DNA of 41,664 nucleotides from assembly GCA_947589485.1 (NCBI GenBank), contig CANQBK010000009.1, forward strand, positions 1 to 41,664, in the 5' to 3' direction. The translations under genes and the position numbers were made by a program. Each line of letters starts with the position of its first letter. The stretch's first letter is position 1. The stretch is from an uncultured Clostridia bacterium (GTDB taxonomy: Bacteria > Bacillota > Clostridia > Oscillospirales > Acutalibacteraceae). Below the pieces are notes generated by a model that worked only from the letters and a program-made list of their open reading frames with translations, had not been told where the DNA came from and made no database searches. Of this stretch, positions 2,865 through 41,664 are shown piece after piece.

Positions 2865-3953
2865 TTACAATTCAAAAATATAACTGACAAGCTCTTTTTC
2901 AAAATTCTCTTTTGTAAATAAAAATACGGCTTTGCCCATAAAGTACCATTCAAGCCTTGTGTTTATGACCATTAAGCTCGTACCCAGTTCTTCGTAAATT
3001 CGTGCGATTTCCTCTTGCGTACAGCTTGTGTCCGTCATATACAAACTTGTCATAATATCAATAAGCCTATCCTCGGAATCCAATACAATACTGTCAATCG
3101 TACTTTTATCCTTGTTGTACCAACTCACACGAACCATTGCATTGTTTCTGAGCAGAGCGTTCATAACGGAGTAGCTTATATCATAAAATGCGTCCATAAT
3201 CGAAGCTGTTTGTACCGCCGCACAAGACGTATCCAAAAGCAGGTCAAACACAAAGTCATTTTCGTCGGGAAATTCCTTTACCCAAGGTATTCCCGTTCGG
3301 GCTGTGTAATTGAAATGCAGGTGCCTGTATAAATCACCTTGACGGTATTCCCTTATGAGTTTTATCTCGCTGTGGTCGCTGCCGCTTTTGCTCGAAAGGA
3401 AATCTGTTAAGGGATCACCGGCATAATCCCCTGCCAAAGGCATATTTATCTTTATTTGCCTGTCAACGGGAATGACAAATATACTTTCGGAACCCTCAAG
3501 CCGTTTCCCCGAAGAAAATATTGACAGCCAATCATATACCTTTAAGCGTTTAAGCGTCAAAGTTACGGGACCGCAGTACGGAGCGGTAAAATAAAAGCTC
3601 ATAATATCGGGTTCTTTGTTTTTTCCGGCTGAAGCGCTCCCGTAAAATTTTTTACGGAATTTTTTCTTATCGGTTTTATATTTCATAAAAAACGAAACAC
3701 TAAGACGGTTAACGGGTATTTTCCCTTGGTTCACCGCCTGTACGCTGCACATTTTTTCCATATTTTTATAGGCTATTTTATTTTGCGTGGGAATTTTTAT
3801 ATTTATTTTGCGTTTTATAATTCTCGGCAGCAAAGCGAGCACAACTATTGCCGCTGCGGCACAAATTGCCATAACCATAAGAATTTGGCTGCTGTACATA
3901 CCGGCAATATACCACATAATGAATATCAGAGCAATAACGGTCAGCTTTTTCAT
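2865..3953 (-). CDS. DUF58 domain membrane-associated protein
   Basis: 362 aa. Two adjacent N-terminal hydrophobic helices (about residues 4-42) are followed by a soluble region. The diagnostic DUF58 stretch REYRQGDLYRHLHFNYTARTG lies near residue 200. The C-terminal half resembles a vWA-like fold, as in other DUF58 proteins that partner with MoxR ATPases. The ATG overlaps the stop of the upstream moxR gene by 4 nt (ATGA), so translational coupling is likely. The GGGAGT just before it serves as ribosome binding site. Family knowledge: MoxR-DUF58 pairs are thought to act as chaperone and scaffold modules at the membrane. The specific role here, perhaps activating or assembling the downstream transglutaminase, is inference. 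Confidence 0.92.
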   Translation of the reverse strand: MKKLTVIALIFIMWYIAGMYSSQILMVMAICAAAAIVVLALLPRIIKRKINIKIPTQNKIAYKNMEKMCSVQAVNQGKIPVNRLSVSFFMKYKTDKKKFRKKFYGSASAGKNKEPDIMSFYFTAPYCGPVTLTLKRLKVYDWLSIFSSGKRLEGSESIFVIPVDRQIKINMPLAGDYAGDPLTDFLSSKSGSDHSEIKLIREYRQGDLYRHLHFNYTARTGIPWVKEFPDENDFVFDLLLDTSCAAVQTASIMDAFYDISYSVMNALLRNNAMVRVSWYNKDKSTIDSIVLDSEDRLIDIMTSLYMTDTSCTQEEIARIYEELGTSLMVINTRLEWYFMGKAVFLFTKENFEKELVSYIFEL

Positions 3954-5852: not shown

Positions 5853-6446
5853 ATGGAAGAAAAAAGACTTTTATTCGTAACTTCACCGCCTGCCTGCGGT
5901 AAAACCAAGCTCTCAAAAAGGCTTGCAAAAGAAATAAAACACATTGTTTACCTTGACAAAGATACTCTGATACCGCTGTCAAAACAAATTTTCACTGTTG
6001 CCGGTCAGCCGTACAACAGAAGTTCCGATTTTTTTGAAAAAGAAATACGCGACTACGAATATGACGTTATACTCGACCTTGCCTTTGAAGCGCTCAAATA
6101 TGAAAACCTTGTTATGGTCAACGCGCCGTTCACAAGGGAAATACGCGACGACAACTATATCAAAAATTTAAGGCAAAAGCTGAAAGAGCTTAACGCAAAG
6201 CTCTCTGTCGTTTGGATAGTCACAGACCCCGAAGTATGCCATCAGCGTATGATAGAGCGTAATTCAGACCGAGATACATGGAAGCTGGAGCATTGGGACG
6301 AATATATGTCGTCGCTCAACTTCAACATTCCGGAGAACCTGCGTGAAAAAGACGACGAAATGAGTCTTATTCTTTACTATAATTCAACGGACGAAATGGC
6401 TGAAGAATCCTTTGCAAAGCTAATCAAATATTTTGAAAATTATTGA
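5853..6446 (+). CDS. P-loop ATPase/kinase of unknown substrate (AAA_33-like)
   Basis: 197 aa, cytoplasmic. The N-terminus has a nucleotide-binding loop, SPPACGKTKLS (about residues 10-20). It fits GxxxxGK[ST] except that the first glycine is serine. LVMVNAPF (about 90) and VVWIVTDPEVCHQRMIERN (about 128-146) resemble the Walker B-like and LID regions of small kinases, with arginines that could contact phosphates. The ribosome binding site AAGGGAG lies before the ATG. The gene stands alone between a divergent operon and a convergent thioesterase, with a shared terminator downstream. I recognise the fold class but not the substrate. Confidence 0.85.
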   Translation: MEEKRLLFVTSPPACGKTKLSKRLAKEIKHIVYLDKDTLIPLSKQIFTVAGQPYNRSSDFFEKEIRDYEYDVILDLAFEALKYENLVMVNAPFTREIRDDNYIKNLRQKLKELNAKLSVVWIVTDPEVCHQRMIERNSDRDTWKLEHWDEYMSSLNFNIPENLREKDDEMSLILYYNSTDEMAEESFAKLIKYFENY

Positions 6447-6554
6447 CGGACATATCTTATCGTGTTCCCGTGTTGTGTTTTTCCGACTGCCTGTTTATTT
6501 GTTTACGGTAATATTGCGGCGGCAAATACGCATAAATACTTTTGAACCCGAAAT

Positions 6555-7196: not shown

Positions 7197-8024
7197 ATGT
7201 CAGACAATCCAGCCGAATCAGAAAAAATGTCGGTATCCGAACCGAAAGCAAAGTCAAAGGTCAAAAAACGTATCCATACTCTTGACGAGCTAAGAGGGCT
7301 TGCCGTATTCTGTATGATATTTTATCACGCATTTTATTCAATGGGAGTGTTTTTTAACTTTAAGTTCGGAACAGACCTGACGAATTTTTTTATGCCCGCC
7401 GAACCCTACTTTGCGGCACTGTTCATATTTATATCGGGAATATCCTCGAACCTTACGCACTCAAATTTGGAACGAGGCTGTAAATTGTTCTTTATTTCCT
7501 ATGCTCTTACAATAGTGACGTTTTTTGTTGTCGGTCCGGGAAATATGATTCGATTCGGTATTCTGCACATGCTCTCCGTATCAATGATTGCATACGGGCT
7601 GCTGACAAAGGTAAATAGTCTTATACCGATGTGGATAGGCGCGGCAGTAAATATAATATTGTTTGTAATCACATTTAACATAACAAGCGGCTCCATAGGC
7701 ATACCGTTCCTATTCTCGTACCGTCTGCCGGAAGATTGGTACAACTCCGGAGTTTTCTATATGTTCGGACTTCCCGACAAAAACTTCGTATCATCTGACT
7801 ATTTTCCGCTGATGCCGTGGTTTTTCCTGTTTTTTGCAGGAGGTTTTATCGGACGGCTTGCCGCAAACAAAAAATTCCCGAAATTCACCTACAAAAAACA
7901 TATACCGTTCCTTGCTTTCCTTGGCAGACACGCACTGATAATTTATTTAGCGCACCAACCCGTAATATTCGGAATATGTTATCTGATACAATTAATTACA
8001 AATTCGCCCGCACCTCAAGCATAG
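7197..8024 (+). CDS. DUF1624/HGSNAT-type membrane acyltransferase-like protein
   Basis: 275 aa multi-pass membrane protein, about seven hydrophobic helices. After a short charged N-terminus comes the hallmark TLDELRGLAVFCMIFYHAFY (about residues 27-46), characteristic of the heparan-alpha-glucosaminide N-acetyltransferase catalytic (DUF1624) family. It ends with GRHALIIYLAHQPVIFGI, also typical. The ribosome binding site GGAGG lies 7 nt before the ATG. Bacterial members are mostly uncharacterised, and transmembrane acetylation of a surface glycan is the usual guess. It is the first gene of a plus-strand run with the next hypothetical gene, tex and the HAD gene (gaps 27, 65 and 50 nt). Confidence 0.9.
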   Translation: MSDNPAESEKMSVSEPKAKSKVKKRIHTLDELRGLAVFCMIFYHAFYSMGVFFNFKFGTDLTNFFMPAEPYFAALFIFISGISSNLTHSNLERGCKLFFISYALTIVTFFVVGPGNMIRFGILHMLSVSMIAYGLLTKVNSLIPMWIGAAVNIILFVITFNITSGSIGIPFLFSYRLPEDWYNSGVFYMFGLPDKNFVSSDYFPLMPWFFLFFAGGFIGRLAANKKFPKFTYKKHIPFLAFLGRHALIIYLAHQPVIFGICYLIQLITNSPAPQA

Positions 8025-13216: not shown

Positions 13217-14539
13217 ATGAAAATCAAAAATTTGTGGCTTCCCGTGATAATCCTTACCCTTATCGGCGGAACGGCAAAAATATGCGACACGCTGTTCAAC
13301 GTACACGGAGAGGGATTTTTTTTCGGCTCCGGCGTATGCAACGCCATAGTAATCGCATCTATTGTCCTGATTTTGATTATCGGGCATATATTGAGCTTAT
13401 TTGACAAAAAAAAGTATTCCGAAGCCGTACCGCTCAAAAACACGACCTGTGGTGTGTTCGGCTTTATTGCGTCGGTAATGATACTCGGCGGCGGTATTTT
13501 GTCGATAATCACCATCGGAAGCCAACCGTTTGCGGTTCTGAATATAGTGACCTGTATACTTACGCTTATCGGCGGCGGTGTGTTACTGTTTGAGTCATGT
13601 ATTTCTTTTACGGGTCAAAACGGCATAAAAAAATTTCCGCTGCTTTCACTTGCCGTTCCGCTTTATATTTGCATAAGGTTTATAAACATTTTTTTGCAGT
13701 ATATGGACAAATCAATCAGTTCAACCGAAATTTTCGATATTATAGCTGTGGCGCTGCTGCTTATGTTCTTTATGTACCAGTCAATGTTCTTTGCGGAAAT
13801 AAACACTACGCTTGCGGTAAGAAAAGCCACTGTTTACGGCTGTGCATACATTATGTGCGGACTTATAGCCGCAATTGATATACTTATAAAGATGACATAT
13901 CCCGCAGTCGAGTCAAATATTGACACGGAAATTGTTGAACCCGCCATAACGACCATAATAAGCTGCATCGGTGACATTGCGCTGTGCGGATATGCAGTTT
14001 GCTTCATTAAAAGCGCACAAAAAAGCGTTGTTAAATCATTGCATAATATTGAAAACAATGTCAGCAGTGAAAAAGAATCTTTTGAAAATGATAAAACGGA
14101 CGCGGTTACGGATAATACGGCGGATAGCGAAACGGACGAATCGAACGAGGTTACGGATAATTCGGCGGATAGCGAAACCGACGAACCGAACGAGGTTACG
14201 GACAATTCGGCGGATAACGAAGCCGACGAATCGAACGAGGTTACGGATAATTCGGCGGATAGCGAAACCGACGAATTGAATGAGGATACGGATAATTCGG
14301 CGGATAGCGAAAGCGACGAATCGAATGAGGTTACGGATAATTCGGCGGATAGCGAAACGGACGAATCGAACGAAGTTACGGACAATTCGGCGGATAGCGA
14401 AACCGACGAATTGAATGAGGATACGGATAATTCGGCGGATAGCGAAACCGACGAATTGAATGAGGATACGCTCCGTAAGGAATCCCCAACAACCGTAAAT
14501 GTAAAACCCGTAATTGCAATACCGATTGAAGAAGATTAA
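13217..14539 (+). CDS. Eight-helix membrane protein with acidic repeat tail
   Basis: 440 aa, family not recognised. Residues 1-275 contain about eight hydrophobic helices. The remainder is a hydrophilic tail dominated by eight near-identical 15-residue repeats (consensus VTDNSADSETDESNE), strongly acidic and presumably disordered, followed by a short end VKPVIAIPIEED. GAAGGAG lies 7 nt before the ATG. The repeats are also near-identical in DNA, so copy number probably varies between strains. An acidic tail on a multi-pass protein might bind cations or a partner, but that is inference. It stands alone upstream of gap. Confidence 0.85.
   Translation: MKIKNLWLPVIILTLIGGTAKICDTLFNVHGEGFFFGSGVCNAIVIASIVLILIIGHILSLFDKKKYSEAVPLKNTTCGVFGFIASVMILGGGILSIITIGSQPFAVLNIVTCILTLIGGGVLLFESCISFTGQNGIKKFPLLSLAVPLYICIRFINIFLQYMDKSISSTEIFDIIAVALLLMFFMYQSMFFAEINTTLAVRKATVYGCAYIMCGLIAAIDILIKMTYPAVESNIDTEIVEPAITTIISCIGDIALCGYAVCFIKSAQKSVVKSLHNIENNVSSEKESFENDKTDAVTDNTADSETDESNEVTDNSADSETDEPNEVTDNSADNEADESNEVTDNSADSETDELNEDTDNSADSESDESNEVTDNSADSETDESNEVTDNSADSETDELNEDTDNSADSETDELNEDTLRKESPTTVNVKPVIAIPIEED
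14105..14464 (+). repeat. In-gene 45-bp tandem repeat, 8 copies
   Basis: Eight in-frame copies of a 45-bp unit (starting GTTACGGATAATTCGGCGGA) encode the 15-residue acidic repeat of the membrane protein. Copies differ mainly at the Ser/Leu/Pro position and at the Val/Asp position of the unit. It is coding and has no CRISPR-like spacers. Confidence 0.95.
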
Positions 14540-14599
14540 AATTCAAACACGGCTTTTATAAAACACACAAAAAATTTTTTTTAAAATTTATGCAAACAC

Positions 14600-38631: not shown

Positions 38632-39771
38632 TTATATTATATTATCAAGAACCTGCAAAGCCCGTTCCCTCTCCTTAGGATATAAATGTGAATACGTCTG
38701 CAATGTAATTTTTATATCGGAATGTCCAAGTCGGCGAGCAATTTCTTGAATGTTAATACCATTATTAGCAAGAAACGAAGCGTGAGAATGTCGAAAATCA
38801 TGTATACGGATGTGCTTAACATTTGCAGCTAAAGCATATTTTCTATTAGCATTTTCTATTGTTGCGTCTTTTAAAGGAATAATACCACCGCATATAAAAT
38901 AATCGTCATTGAAATCCTGCGCAAAAGTTTTGCATCTATTATAATGCTCGTCAAGAACTATTTTAAGTGGTTTAGGTATGCCAATGTTTCGGATAGAGGA
39001 TTTATTTTTCGGTGGGGTGATTTTGTCCTCACCTTTTATTTTTGCAATGCTCTTTGTGATATGGATTTCATTATCAATAATATCATTCCAAGTTAAGGCT
39101 TTGATTTCTCCTTTTCTCGCTCCGGTAAAAAATGCAATGTAAAAAAAGACATATAAATCCCACTTATTCAATTGTTCGGTTTTTTCCGCAACATCACGAG
39201 CAACAGAAATGAAGAGTTTAAATTCTTCCGGTGTATAATAAAGCATCTCTTTATGATCCTCGAGAGGAGCTTTAAAATTTCCTACTTTAAGTAACGGATT
39301 GTTAGGTAAATATTCAAGCTTAACTCCAAAATAAAGCATAGTCCTGAATTCACTATAAATATTTTTTCGCATTTTTGCACTAAGATTTAAAGATTCGATT
39401 TTATTTTTCCATAATTGCAAATTTTGTACATTTAGTTTATTTAATTTACAATCGCCAAGATATGGTAAAACGTGGCAACTTATAACATTAATACTTTTAA
39501 TCAAAGACGTTTCTCTCACTTCATGAGTTTTAGCAACAATATATTTTTGATAAAGTTCATTTACTGTCATTCGAGCAGCCGGAGCTGTTTCTTTAAATTG
39601 ATACTTTAATTCCAATTCAAGTTGCTTTGCCTCATCAGCTCCATAAGCTGTACGCTCGATCTGTTTATTAGTTCCGTTGTTATCAGTATAGTTTATCCTC
39701 ACCCTGTATTTTTGCTTACCGTCTTTTTTTACGGGCTTGCCGTTTTTGTCGAAAACTTTATTTATCGGCAT
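38632..39771 (-). CDS. int: Tyrosine recombinase / site-specific integrase
   Basis: 379 aa. A short arm-binding-like N-terminus (KQKYRVRINYTDNNGTNKQI) and a SAM-like core-binding domain (about 65-165) precede the catalytic domain. Catalytic residues are the Arg in FTGARKGEIKALTW, His and Arg in IRIHDFRHSHAS, His in RRLGHSDIKIT and the Tyr nucleophile in LQTYSHLY. This is the organisation of Tn916/phage-type Firmicutes integrases. The ribosome binding site (AAAAGGT, about 13 nt before the ATG) is poorly spaced, implying weak expression. No excisionase gene is adjacent. It lies next to the presumed element boundary. Confidence 0.95.
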   Translation of the reverse strand: MPINKVFDKNGKPVKKDGKQKYRVRINYTDNNGTNKQIERTAYGADEAKQLELELKYQFKETAPAARMTVNELYQKYIVAKTHEVRETSLIKSINVISCHVLPYLGDCKLNKLNVQNLQLWKNKIESLNLSAKMRKNIYSEFRTMLYFGVKLEYLPNNPLLKVGNFKAPLEDHKEMLYYTPEEFKLFISVARDVAEKTEQLNKWDLYVFFYIAFFTGARKGEIKALTWNDIIDNEIHITKSIAKIKGEDKITPPKNKSSIRNIGIPKPLKIVLDEHYNRCKTFAQDFNDDYFICGGIIPLKDATIENANRKYALAANVKHIRIHDFRHSHASFLANNGINIQEIARRLGHSDIKITLQTYSHLYPKERERALQVLDNII

Positions 39772-39833: not shown

Positions 39834-40256
39834 TTATTTTACATTTTCACCGTTTTTTAAAAGCCAGTCTTTTATAATTTCTCTAATCATTTCCGAACGA
39901 TTAATTTTTTTATTTCTGGCAAATTTATCGACTTCACTTACCATTTTTTTACTTAGATTAATTCCAATATAACAATTTTCATCTTTTGTTATATTAAATA
40001 CTCTATTGAAAATCTCAATCGGTAATTTTTCTTCTGCCCATTTTTTAGCTTCTTCATAACTTAATGGATGTATACTTTCACCGTTAAGCCAAGTTTTGGG
40101 ACCGCCGATTATTCCATAAAGGAAAAACTCTCCTGTCTTTTTTCGATATAAAGTTTCTTTTACAAATTCAAAATCATTCCTCTCATTGTTGCTCCAAGTT
40201 CCTATTACTTGTGCGGTTTGTGTATCATATATTTTATTATTTTTTATCTTTTTCAT
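39834..40256 (-). CDS. Ribbon-helix-helix domain protein of mobile elements
   Basis: 140 aa from the chosen start. The N-terminal about 95 residues (NNKIYDTQTAQVIGTW, KKTGEFFLYGIIGGPKTW, PLSYEEAKKWAEEKL) resemble a small domain found on clostridial phages and conjugative elements. The C-terminal about 40 residues (NLSKKMVSEVDKFARNKKIN then RSEMIREIIKDWL) are a typical RHH/CopG DNA-binding fold. Such proteins are often annotated as antitoxins or element regulators; no toxin partner is next to it. An in-frame ATG 18 nt earlier (40274) lacks a ribosome binding site; GGA sits 9 nt before the ATG used here, so the choice is weak. Confidence 0.8.
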   Translation of the reverse strand: MKKIKNNKIYDTQTAQVIGTWSNNERNDFEFVKETLYRKKTGEFFLYGIIGGPKTWLNGESIHPLSYEEAKKWAEEKLPIEIFNRVFNITKDENCYIGINLSKKMVSEVDKFARNKKINRSEMIREIIKDWLLKNGENVK

Positions 40257-40434
40257 AAAATTAATTCCATTCATATATTTTCAAGTCGATTTAACGTATC
40301 TTTTGCATAAACATACCGCTTTTGCTTTCCAGCCTATCATTCCTCGATGTCGTGTGCGAATTGTTTTGTAGCTTTTGATATACTCGTTCAACATAAAAAT
40401 CGGTTAATTTTTGCTCCACTGGTTTTATAGCAGA

Positions 40435-41121
40435 CTATTTTTTATAAAGTGGGTCTTCTTTTACTTTGTCTGAACCAGGTTTTGATACCTTTGTTTGTAA
40501 ACCGTCAATATGTTCATTCAAACTTGATTTTATAGTATGCCACATCGGGTCAAGGATAAAGTCTATGCCTTCCCTACGCGCGTGTTTTGCGGCAGGAACA
40601 AAGTCACTGTCACCGGCTATAAGTATTATTTGGTCAACTTGCTTTTTATAAGCAAGAGAAGAAATATCCAAACAGATCCTCGTATCAACACCCTTTTGTT
40701 TTATATCAAGTTTAAAATCATTTTCTTTTAAATCGTCAATCGTTAATGTTTTATTACATAGTTTTTTGACTATGTCCATTTTTATGATGTACCCTATGGT
40801 ACCTTCAAGCAATTCACCACGCCTTATAGCAACCTTTCGTTTTGACTTTAATTCTTCAAAAAAACTGTTACTCCATTTATACACTTCTGTTTTTTTAAGG
40901 TCAATATTTTTTTTTAAAAATGGGTGATATACCATTTTATTTGACGGCATACAATCATAATAAAATATTCTATATAAATCTTTTTTGGAATGTTCTGTTT
41001 TTAAATGTCTTTGGCAATAACTAATCAACTCGTAGGCTCTATCTTCTGGTGACTTAATTCCCCAAATATATTCGGCACGCTTTAAATAAAAACCTCCATC
41101 AACTAATATAGCAACTTTCAA
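40435..41121 (-). CDS. NYN-domain (PIN-like) putative ribonuclease
   Basis: 228 aa, NYN/DUF88 (LabA-like) family. Acidic metal-site residues are visible: VAILVDGGFYLKRA at the N-terminus, KGVDTRICLDIS (about 148-160) and LIAGDSDFVPAAKHARREG (about 172-190), followed by DPMWHTIKSSLNEHIDG. This is the PIN-like nuclease core; family members act on RNA. Start: AAGGAG is followed after 8 nt by TTG at 41121, while a GTG at 41130 overlaps the ribosome binding site and is rejected. The region immediately upstream encodes a structured RNA ending in a terminator-like hairpin. No partner protein gene is adjacent. Function in the element (defence, toxin or RNA processing) is not shown. Confidence 0.88.
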   Translation of the reverse strand: MKVAILVDGGFYLKRAEYIWGIKSPEDRAYELISYCQRHLKTEHSKKDLYRIFYYDCMPSNKMVYHPFLKKNIDLKKTEVYKWSNSFFEELKSKRKVAIRRGELLEGTIGYIIKMDIVKKLCNKTLTIDDLKENDFKLDIKQKGVDTRICLDISSLAYKKQVDQIILIAGDSDFVPAAKHARREGIDFILDPMWHTIKSSLNEHIDGLQTKVSKPGSDKVKEDPLYKK

Positions 41122-41145
41122 TTTTACCACTCCTTATTTTTATAT

Positions 41146-41232
41146 AAAAAAGCTCTCGGTCTCAACACTTCCCGTATGGTGGGAGGTCTACTGCCAAGAG
41201 CTTACAATCAAAACATAGTAGTCCAACTACTA
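41146..41232 (-). ncRNA. Structured RNA / attenuator in the NYN leader
   Basis: On the minus strand the predicted transcript starts with hairpin 1, TAGTAGT-TGG-ACTACTA (41232-41216). A 12-nt linker leads to hairpin 2 (41203-41150): an outer stem AAGCTCT / AGAGCTT extended by GG/CC, and an inner stem ACCTCCC / GGGAAGT with a 7-nt apical loop. The outer stem runs into TTTTTT (41151-41146), so it is also an intrinsic terminator. The NYN ribosome binding site begins only about 10 nt later. It could be an independent small RNA of about 87 nt with partial readthrough into the nuclease, or an attenuator. It is present once and matches no RNA family I can name. Confidence 0.6.
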
Positions 41233-41238
41233 ATATAT

Positions 41239-41266
41239 ATTATGCACATTTTAGAGAAAAAATCAA
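41239..41266 (-). promoter_or_regulatory. Promoter of the NYN leader RNA
   Basis: Minus strand: TTGATT (41266-41261), a 16-nt spacer, CATAAT (41244-41239). The predicted start, about 7 nt on, falls on the first base of hairpin 1 (41232). Confidence 0.5.
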
Positions 41267-41404
41267 TAGTAAATTTAAAATTGTAACTATTTTTATAAAA
41301 AATGCTTAAAATATTATACAAAAAAGTGTGAGTTTTAACAATAGCCTGAGCAACTTTTTCAGCTTCTATTTGCAGATGGCGGAGTTTTTCGTTAATTATG
41401 ATGT

Positions 41405-41509
41405 TTAAGTAAGATGCAGTTCTTCTTTAAGTGCTTTTTGCAGCAACTGCGAGAAATTAACCTTTTCCATCACTGCAATATCATTCAGCTATTTAGGAAT
41501 TGTCAGTTT
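41405..41509 (-). pseudogene. Decayed HicB-like antitoxin C-terminus
   Basis: Minus-strand translation gives KLTIPK, then a TAG stop where relatives have Trp, then LNDIAVMEK and VNFSQLLQKALKEELHLT before the final stop. LTIPKW-LN-IA followed by NFSQxLQxALK is the C-terminal ribbon-helix-helix segment of HicB family antitoxins. The N-terminal HicB domain is missing and a TAA stands three codons before LTIPK, so this is a remnant. Further downstream on the same strand (41341-41392) another orphan fragment (KLRHLQIEAEKVAQAI) is readable but unassigned. Confidence 0.6.
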
Positions 41510-41664
41510 TTAATTTTCGTTTATATAATCTTGTTTTTCCTCTATACTTGAAAATTCAGAGTGAATGTAGCATTCTTTTAATTCTGTTAAATAATTAAAT
41601 TTCCATTCATGTTGACAAGGTTGTTCATAATTAGAGAAAAACTCTTTTGTAAATTTCTCGTATG
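41510..41664 (-). CDS. 3' end of an unrecognised gene, cut by the window edge
   Basis: The minus-strand frame is open from the right edge for 50 codons to TAA at 41512-41510. The readable C-terminus includes FTKEFFSNYEQPCQHEWKFN and LKECYIHSEFSSIEEKQDYI and ends NEN. I do not recognise it. Codon use and the absence of stops suggest a real coding end, but it is in the same frame as the HicB remnant that follows, so it may be part of a degraded locus. Confidence 0.45.
   Translation of the reverse strand, partial: YEKFTKEFFSNYEQPCQHEWKFNYLTELKECYIHSEFSSIEEKQDYINEN

Follow-up and report, generated by a model that had tools for sequence, protein, structure and literature searches.

The NYN-domain nuclease gene of the 41,664-nucleotide stretch of uncultured Clostridia DNA analysed here (the window) is preceded by a short structured RNA that is, with near certainty, real, conserved and tied to a subfamily of NYN proteins, and our comparative analysis suggests that this RNA probably holds the nuclease in check. 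The promoter, 5' hairpin, 54-nt stem, T6 run, AAGGAG and TTG-started NYN gene that the original prediction had read from the sequence were all found at the positions it gave (Table 1), and its wider proposal is partly supported by the comparisons described below, in which the RNA proves to be conserved, to have a promoter and a T-tailed stem by prediction, and to be linked directly to NYN genes in mobile elements, in a type III-like order.

Table 1 Features of the NYN locus in the window
Feature	Position	Strand	Basis or remark
Putative sigma-A type promoter	41237..41266	-	Sequence and promoter scan
-35 box TTGATT	41266-41261	-	Sequence
-10 box CATAAT	41244-41239	-	Spacing 16; alternative TAATAT at spacing 18
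RNA 5' hairpin TAGTAGT-TGG-ACTACTA, 17 nt, 7 perfect pairs, loop TGG	41232-41216	-	Sequence
Core RNA hairpin, 54 nt: P1, internal loop (GUA, GA), P2, P3, apical loop (AU)	41203-41150	-	Covariance model R1, 66.5 bits
T6 run 3' of P1	41151-41146	-	Sequence
Ribosome-binding site AAGGAG of NYN gene	41135-41130	-	Sequence
NYN-domain nuclease gene, 228 aa, TTG start	40435..41121 (stop included)	-	Pfam, PHROGs
Ribbon-helix-helix protein; its gene follows NYN in the element	39834..40274	-	RHH_1, 24.9 bits
Tyrosine integrase of the element	38632..39771	-	Phage_integrase, 73 bits

Taken from position 41232, the window RNA folds at -28.1 kcal/mol (z -3.3), a value matched by 1 of 200 dinucleotide shuffles, and its P1 stem with the T run is also predicted to be terminator-like. 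A simple terminator scan reported no site; the scan takes loops of 3-8 nt only, and the internal loop is larger. For the NYN gene, the TTG start, 8 nt past the AAGGAG, is favoured by the family alignment over a GTG at 41130. Since the ribbon-helix-helix and tyrosine integrase genes follow downstream on the same strand, the NYN module is part of an integrated element, in agreement with its earlier placement in mobile DNA. Upstream of the RNA, the window carries the C-terminal remnant of a HicB-like gene (named by eye; 41400-41511), and elsewhere (13900-14540) it encodes a protein with a long stretch of near-identical acidic repeats.

The window protein reaches the gathering score of the Pfam NYN family (PF01936; 45.1 bits against a cut-off of 24.2). 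Pfam includes a ToxN model, and at E 0.1 it returned NYN alone, which bears out the earlier view of the protein as NYN rather than ToxN-like. AbiF is a HEPN RNase, and Pfam found no Abi_2 domain in the window protein. PADLOC gave weak partial matches only, and PHROGs placed the protein in phrog_5783, to which no function is assigned there. No solved relative was found by sequence at E 0.1; the best solved folds for the predicted structure (pLDDT 87.9) were 2qip (VPA0982) and the NYN domain of MARF1, from both of which the window family stands apart as a separate subfamily (phrog_5783), distinguished by its long conserved motifs and its partner RNA. Conservation in this subfamily is strong, with 31 columns invariant among 50 NYN sequences, and D8, D146, D152, D171 and D173 are invariant in them; we take the invariant acidic residues of NYN domains to be catalytic. 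Conservation of this strength is unusual for a toxin.

Starting from the protein, we found an NYN gene in 3 of 99 genomes, the window's own included, and then worked with 91 NYN loci: 80 of 85 taken from one-per-species genomes by a pattern search, some of them near-copies, and 11 in viral contigs. A covariance model (R1), built from 32 aligned upstream RNAs with a three-stem structure, gave 69 matches at E 1 across 95 sources. In 63 of the 91 loci it identified an RNA no more than about 135 nt ahead of the NYN match, with E-values of 2.3e-4 or lower. To judge by their titles, the loci positive for R1 belong to Bacillota, Spirochaetota, Planctomycetota, Acidobacteriota and Pseudomonadota. In 12 more loci, a variant T-tailed hairpin lies upstream of the NYN gene; six loci share one form (L037, L044-L047, L083), four Bacteroidales loci share another, adding Bacteroidota to the distribution, and L054 and L089 have variants of their own. 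Among all variants, ten have z-scores of -1.9 to -5.3 (L062, L068, L077, L130, L037, L047, L054, L089, L124, L126), and L044-L046, L083, L078 and L125 were recognised by eye. The variant hairpins of Bacteroidales, lambdoid phages, Thermus, the L037 group, L054, L089 and genome G158 are likely, on few sequences, to be homologous to the R1 RNA.

No RNA-like hairpin was found at 15 of the 90 assessable loci (the sequence of L030 starts 6 nt before the NYN gene), and these are the 14 loci of a clade of Rhodanobacteraceae and neighbours together with L063. With its filters off, R1 did not exceed 8.0 bits in any of the five loci searched from this clade, or 10.3 bits in L063; two RNA-less Rhodanobacteraceae controls had z-scores of -0.6 and -2.4, and the T run was absent from them. 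In a tree of 117 NYN proteins, from which three rows with an interrupted frame (L038, L055 and L103) were excluded, R1 RNAs fall on either side of the midpoint root, which serves for drawing only, and the 14 RNA-less rows form a single starred clade with a stem of 0.88 and tips of 0 to 0.18. We infer that this clade fits a chromosomal gene that left mobile life. An in-frame TAA interrupts the NYN gene of L103 (genome G145), while the RNA of this locus matches R1 at 43 bits.

Conservation and covariation upstream of homologous NYN genes, on which the original prediction had staked itself, are both present. In the 32-row alignment, all 15 pairs were changed on both sides, with a score of.592 against.262 when shuffled and.205 at best when slid. 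Across 64 distinct rows, 15 of 15 pairs again showed changes on both sides, covariation was.626 against.252 in shuffles (0 of 500 reaching it), and 91.1% of cells were pairing against 72.3%; the count of 15 both-side-changed pairs taken alone was reached by 21 of 500 shuffles and the other measures by none, and the rows of alignments A2 (which includes the solitary L095) and A9 were placed by the model, so that they are biased towards it. The covariation supports a set of nested stems, in which the third P2 pair is doubtful, being unpaired in 36 of 63 rows. Conservation extends to unpaired positions, namely the GUA on the 5' side of the internal loop (G in 60, U in 63 and A in 63 of 64 rows), the GA on its 3' side (G in 58, A in 62) and the AU of the apical loop (61 each); the internal loop presumably resembles a UAA/GAN motif. 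P1 mostly comprises 7 to 11 unbroken pairs and runs into T. Tested singly, R1 RNAs are not always more stable than shuffles (L031, z -0.9; L117, -1.5; L148, -1.1). The 5'-end hairpin, whose sequence varies between relatives, was found at p 0.1 or less in 43 of 79 cases, with 30 composition shuffles each.

Promoter matches accompany this structure. Among 78 NYN-paired loci, the window included, at least 9 of 12 promoter positions matched in 72, at least 10 in 58 and at least 11 in 34, compared with 31%, 5.5% and 0.4% of dinucleotide shuffles, respectively; the spacing was 17 in 61 of the 72 loci with at least 9 matches.

These observations bear on simpler explanations. A chance hairpin is ruled out by the covariation and the linkage to NYN. 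A plain terminator of the upstream gene is unlikely, as the promoter lies directly upstream of the RNA and some of the most conserved positions are unpaired ones in the loops, for which a terminator has no need. The window contains no tRNA or tmRNA, and 5S rRNA was the only Rfam family found in it at gathering. Below that threshold, TEG147 (RF03535) aligned to the window RNA over positions 1-60 of its 60 (34.6 bits against a gathering cut-off of 56.1; E 3.7e-5 and 1.2e-5), and it appeared at E 1, also below the cut-off, in 3 of 10 loci scanned (L004, L029 and L031; best 42.5 bits, in L004). By blastn, which is weak for RNAs of 60 nt, the window RNA had no match in deposited phages and the TEG147 consensus none in phages and plasmids; an 18-mer of the L109 RNA in 7 Gordonia records (E 8) was judged to be chance.

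The surroundings of the NYN genes point to mobile elements. For 100 of 164 downstream and 66 of 90 upstream ORFs, scanned with Rhodanobacteraceae left out, the commonest downstream families were integrases and recombinases (Phage_integrase 20, Resolvase 11), and HTH_3 (13) and Peptidase_S24 (6) were found upstream. NYN copies often lie between the repressor and integrase genes of prophage-like elements, as in Streptococcus phage Javan85, where the gene sits between an XRE regulator and an integrase. In the lambdoid Escherichia phage ev099 and Proteus phage Brookers, NYN follows a LexA-like repressor gene, a position that we take to be that of rexAB in lambda. Nine of 15 phage records with NYN were opened, and six contained the R1 RNA (L120-L123, L129, L131) and three a variant (L124, L125, L130). 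Among three of 162 plasmid records opened, the Xanthomonas plasmid has an R1 RNA (27.4 bits) and the Thermus plasmid a variant hairpin; the Campylobacter plasmid (L127), from the genus that supplies 134 of the 162 records, showed no convincing RNA, with a 13.7-bit candidate worse than its shuffles (z +1.0) and an unrelated-looking hairpin.

Further features were seen at individual loci. On the Campylobacter plasmid, NYN comes after the gene for a very large protein related to SNF2, and on the Thermus plasmid (L126) it has a helicase on one side and an N-6 DNA methylase on the other, like a defence operon. In Blautia schinkii (L031, 1381-2115), an array of seven tRNA genes stands beside the NYN module on the other strand. 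The ev099 stretch is matched in 274 of 5426 E. coli genomes, in 73 of them over at least 80%; of two copies opened, one equals the ev099 gene letter for letter (RefSeq gives two pieces) and an IS element interrupts the other.

Scanning with R1, in which the protein was not used, revealed that the RNA also occurs alone. Hits were obtained in 13 of 291, 5 of 398, 3 of 60, 11 of 394 and 17 of 393 genomes (overlapping sets; scans of more than 40 genomes were run with stricter filters), amounting to 34 distinct places, of which 17 adjoin an NYN gene and 17 have none in the fetched flank. Searched at E 1e-10, NYN was found in 0 of 16 genomes behind solitary RNAs, the window genome aside, and in 14 of 14 control genomes whose RNA is paired. 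Of the 291 genomes in the class sample, 13 had the RNA and 7 NYN, with 6 having both by R1 and 7 the RNA only; the seventh NYN genome (G158) carries a T-tailed variant hairpin (z -4.2). Among the 60 nearest genomes, RNA and NYN are confined to the same 3. Four pattern scans of viral contigs, with patterns derived from NYN-linked RNAs, yielded 19 distinct RNA loci, 11 with NYN (counting L135 through L088, the other locus of its contig) and 8 without; NYN was present in 0 of the 8 viral records with a solitary RNA, which may be fragments.

The 25 solitary loci hold 26 RNAs, as L150 carries two, and these keep both the structure (.624 against.242) and the unpaired core (G in 23, U in 25 and A in 25, and G in 22 and A in 23, of 26). 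Their covariation may in part be inherited from paired ancestors, and they score below paired RNAs, with a median of 45.6 bits compared with 54.5 (17 each). Some of them seem to have decayed, among them a second copy in the window genome (G000:C15:33883-33936, L095), in which about 74 bp including the -35 box are gone and GUA has become GUG. On contig C15, this copy adjoins a tRNA-Pro gene, and a longer homologue of the HicB-like gene (L095, 1686-2102; 93% identical over 203 bases) lies upstream of it.

Because structure and unpaired core are kept where NYN is absent, we count these places against plain attenuation, which the original prediction had allowed for. They also weigh on a related explanation, in which the hairpin is a cis-acting leader or attenuator of the NYN gene, bound or cut by the nuclease itself for autoregulation and with no antitoxin role. 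The position of the RNA between promoter and gene, the terminator-like P1 with its T run and the Rfam typing of TEG147 as Cis-reg would all suit such a leader. We nevertheless consider it unlikely, given the absence of NYN at the 17 genome places and 8 viral loci just described, and given that, of 25 solitary RNAs with sufficient upstream DNA, 15 have a promoter with at least 9 of 12 matches and 11 one with at least 10, more than the shuffle rates above. In addition, one RNA of the phage contig L133 lies downstream of NYN, and Teg147, a homologous RNA of S. aureus HG003 with a length of 60 nt, has been classed as a bona fide sRNA on the basis of RNA-seq, its table row giving no Northern blot (PMC5826253).

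The claim that the RNA is a single unit holds for the window and for most NYN loci, which have at most one R1 match, but not for L039, where two separate units stand one behind the other upstream of one NYN gene (2288-2340 and 2430-2486), nor for L133, where a first RNA precedes NYN and a second follows it (6446-6499 and 7458-7511). Apparently, L136 is kin to the L133 element and retains the second RNA only.

Neighbouring genes raise another explanation, that the RNA serves mobile elements in the control of integration or lysogeny, with several cargo genes placed after it, NYN being one. Integrases and recombinases are the commonest families downstream of NYN, and for 8 of the 25 solitary loci Pfam shows one not more than about 3 kb downstream (L101, L104, L112, L113, L136, L162, L164, L166). 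Other defence-type genes occur as well: the L108 RNA precedes a gene for an AbiLi-like ATPase, the L138 RNA stands 20 nt before a Schlafen (SLFN_AlbA_2) gene, and the L150 RNAs (6221-6274 and 3850-3904) flank AbiD, one lying between the SIR2 and AbiD genes and the other after AbiD. Each of these other effectors was met once, however, and NYN with the RNA or a variant is also found without an adjoining integrase, in lambdoid phages and on the Xanthomonas and Thermus plasmids, which makes a role in integration or lysogeny very improbable in our judgement. Five solitary RNAs are promoterless (L100, L109, L117, L119 and L148; at best 6, 6, 7, 6 and 4 of 12 matches, the score of L119 resting on 93 nt upstream), and among these the L117 and L109 RNAs precede terminase genes and the L148 RNA an HNH gene.

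We give similarly little credence to the RNA as a guide or cofactor with which the nuclease finds or positions its target. One RNA, one protein and conserved loops would agree with this; yet the core has no variable guide-like segment, its variable parts being mostly paired stems, and RNAs in genomes lacking NYN would be hard to explain.

On balance, our analysis favours a mobile, RNA-controlled NYN nuclease resembling type III or AbiF systems in its action, the solitary RNAs being decoys or antidotes that were retained. Many copies of the RNA stand by themselves, but few of the nuclease do except in one clade, as would be expected if the nuclease were tolerated only with the RNA; an RNA that is useful or harmless by itself would fit the solitary copies. 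Such a system would make a short structured RNA from a strong promoter and express NYN by readthrough of the T-tailed stem, with most transcripts ending at P1 and the RNA therefore in excess. The conserved GUA/GA internal loop may form the contact with the nuclease, which would stay inactive until transcription ceases or the RNA disappears, for example upon phage infection, and the freed enzyme would then cleave RNA of the cell or of the phage. The solitary copies found in integrative elements and phages could be retained antitoxins, or decoys against the NYN modules of other elements, so that the RNA borne alone by many mobile elements is perhaps a shield. In favour of the RNA as antitoxin we count the linkage, the covariation, the promoters, the solitary RNAs, the integrase and repressor neighbours, and the AbiF and ToxIN precedents; against it stand the strong conservation of NYN, the single unit, the 15 of 90 RNA-less loci, the Campylobacter plasmid L127 and the decayed solitary RNAs.

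More tentatively, and with considerable doubt, these loci could belong to a hitherto unrecognised multi-phylum class of RNA-controlled nucleases with a common RNA core, Teg147 included, in which the RNA would act in addiction or defence when with NYN, as an antidote when alone by an integrase with a promoter of its own, and as a decoy made only during infection when promoterless in phage modules, and could also be joined to AbiLi-like or Schlafen AlbA_2 proteins. If true, this would bring a new and widespread nuclease fold to RNA-antitoxin systems, suggest a role for an orphan family of staphylococcal sRNAs and provide a natural example of phage-borne RNA decoys; the conservation of the RNA lets a covariance model find both sides of the conflict without the protein.

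Among the papers listed by searches of open-licence PMC literature, none links such an RNA to NYN by its title or the start of its abstract. The closest known RNA is TEG147, all 60 model positions of which align with the window RNA, with the same kind of stems and an AGUA and GA core. The family was made in an Rfam course (PMC7779021) and Teg147 is expressed from a genomic island (PMC3053349); it differs from the window RNA in that no NYN link is given in the portions of PMC5826253, PMC7779021 and PMC3053349 drawn on here. With type III systems (ToxIN, CptIN and TenpIN; PMC5086642), the window locus shares, by sequence prediction, the order of one promoter, RNA, Rho-independent terminator and endoribonuclease toxin gene. 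In type III systems a pseudoknotted tandem-repeat RNA is joined to a ToxN-like toxin, whereas the window locus has no tandem array and, by sequence, no ToxN, CptN or TenpN toxin; the NYN protein and single RNA unit place the module outside type III. For ToxIN, a phage-borne mimic of the RNA antitoxin has been described, pseudo-ToxI (PMC3475682). The layout of the NYN module is also that of AbiF/RCd22 in the C. difficile prophage phi027, where a SigA promoter is followed by a short ncRNA, a Rho-independent terminator and the toxin gene (PMC12373285). AbiF/RCd22 combines an Abi-family protein with an RNA containing two abiF motifs, whereas the window combines NYN with one unit of different structure. 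According to PMC12373285, most transcription ends at the terminator in that system, and RCd22 accumulates and represses AbiF, also via an RNA-protein complex, so that the antitoxin role of an RNA has been shown for the same layout.
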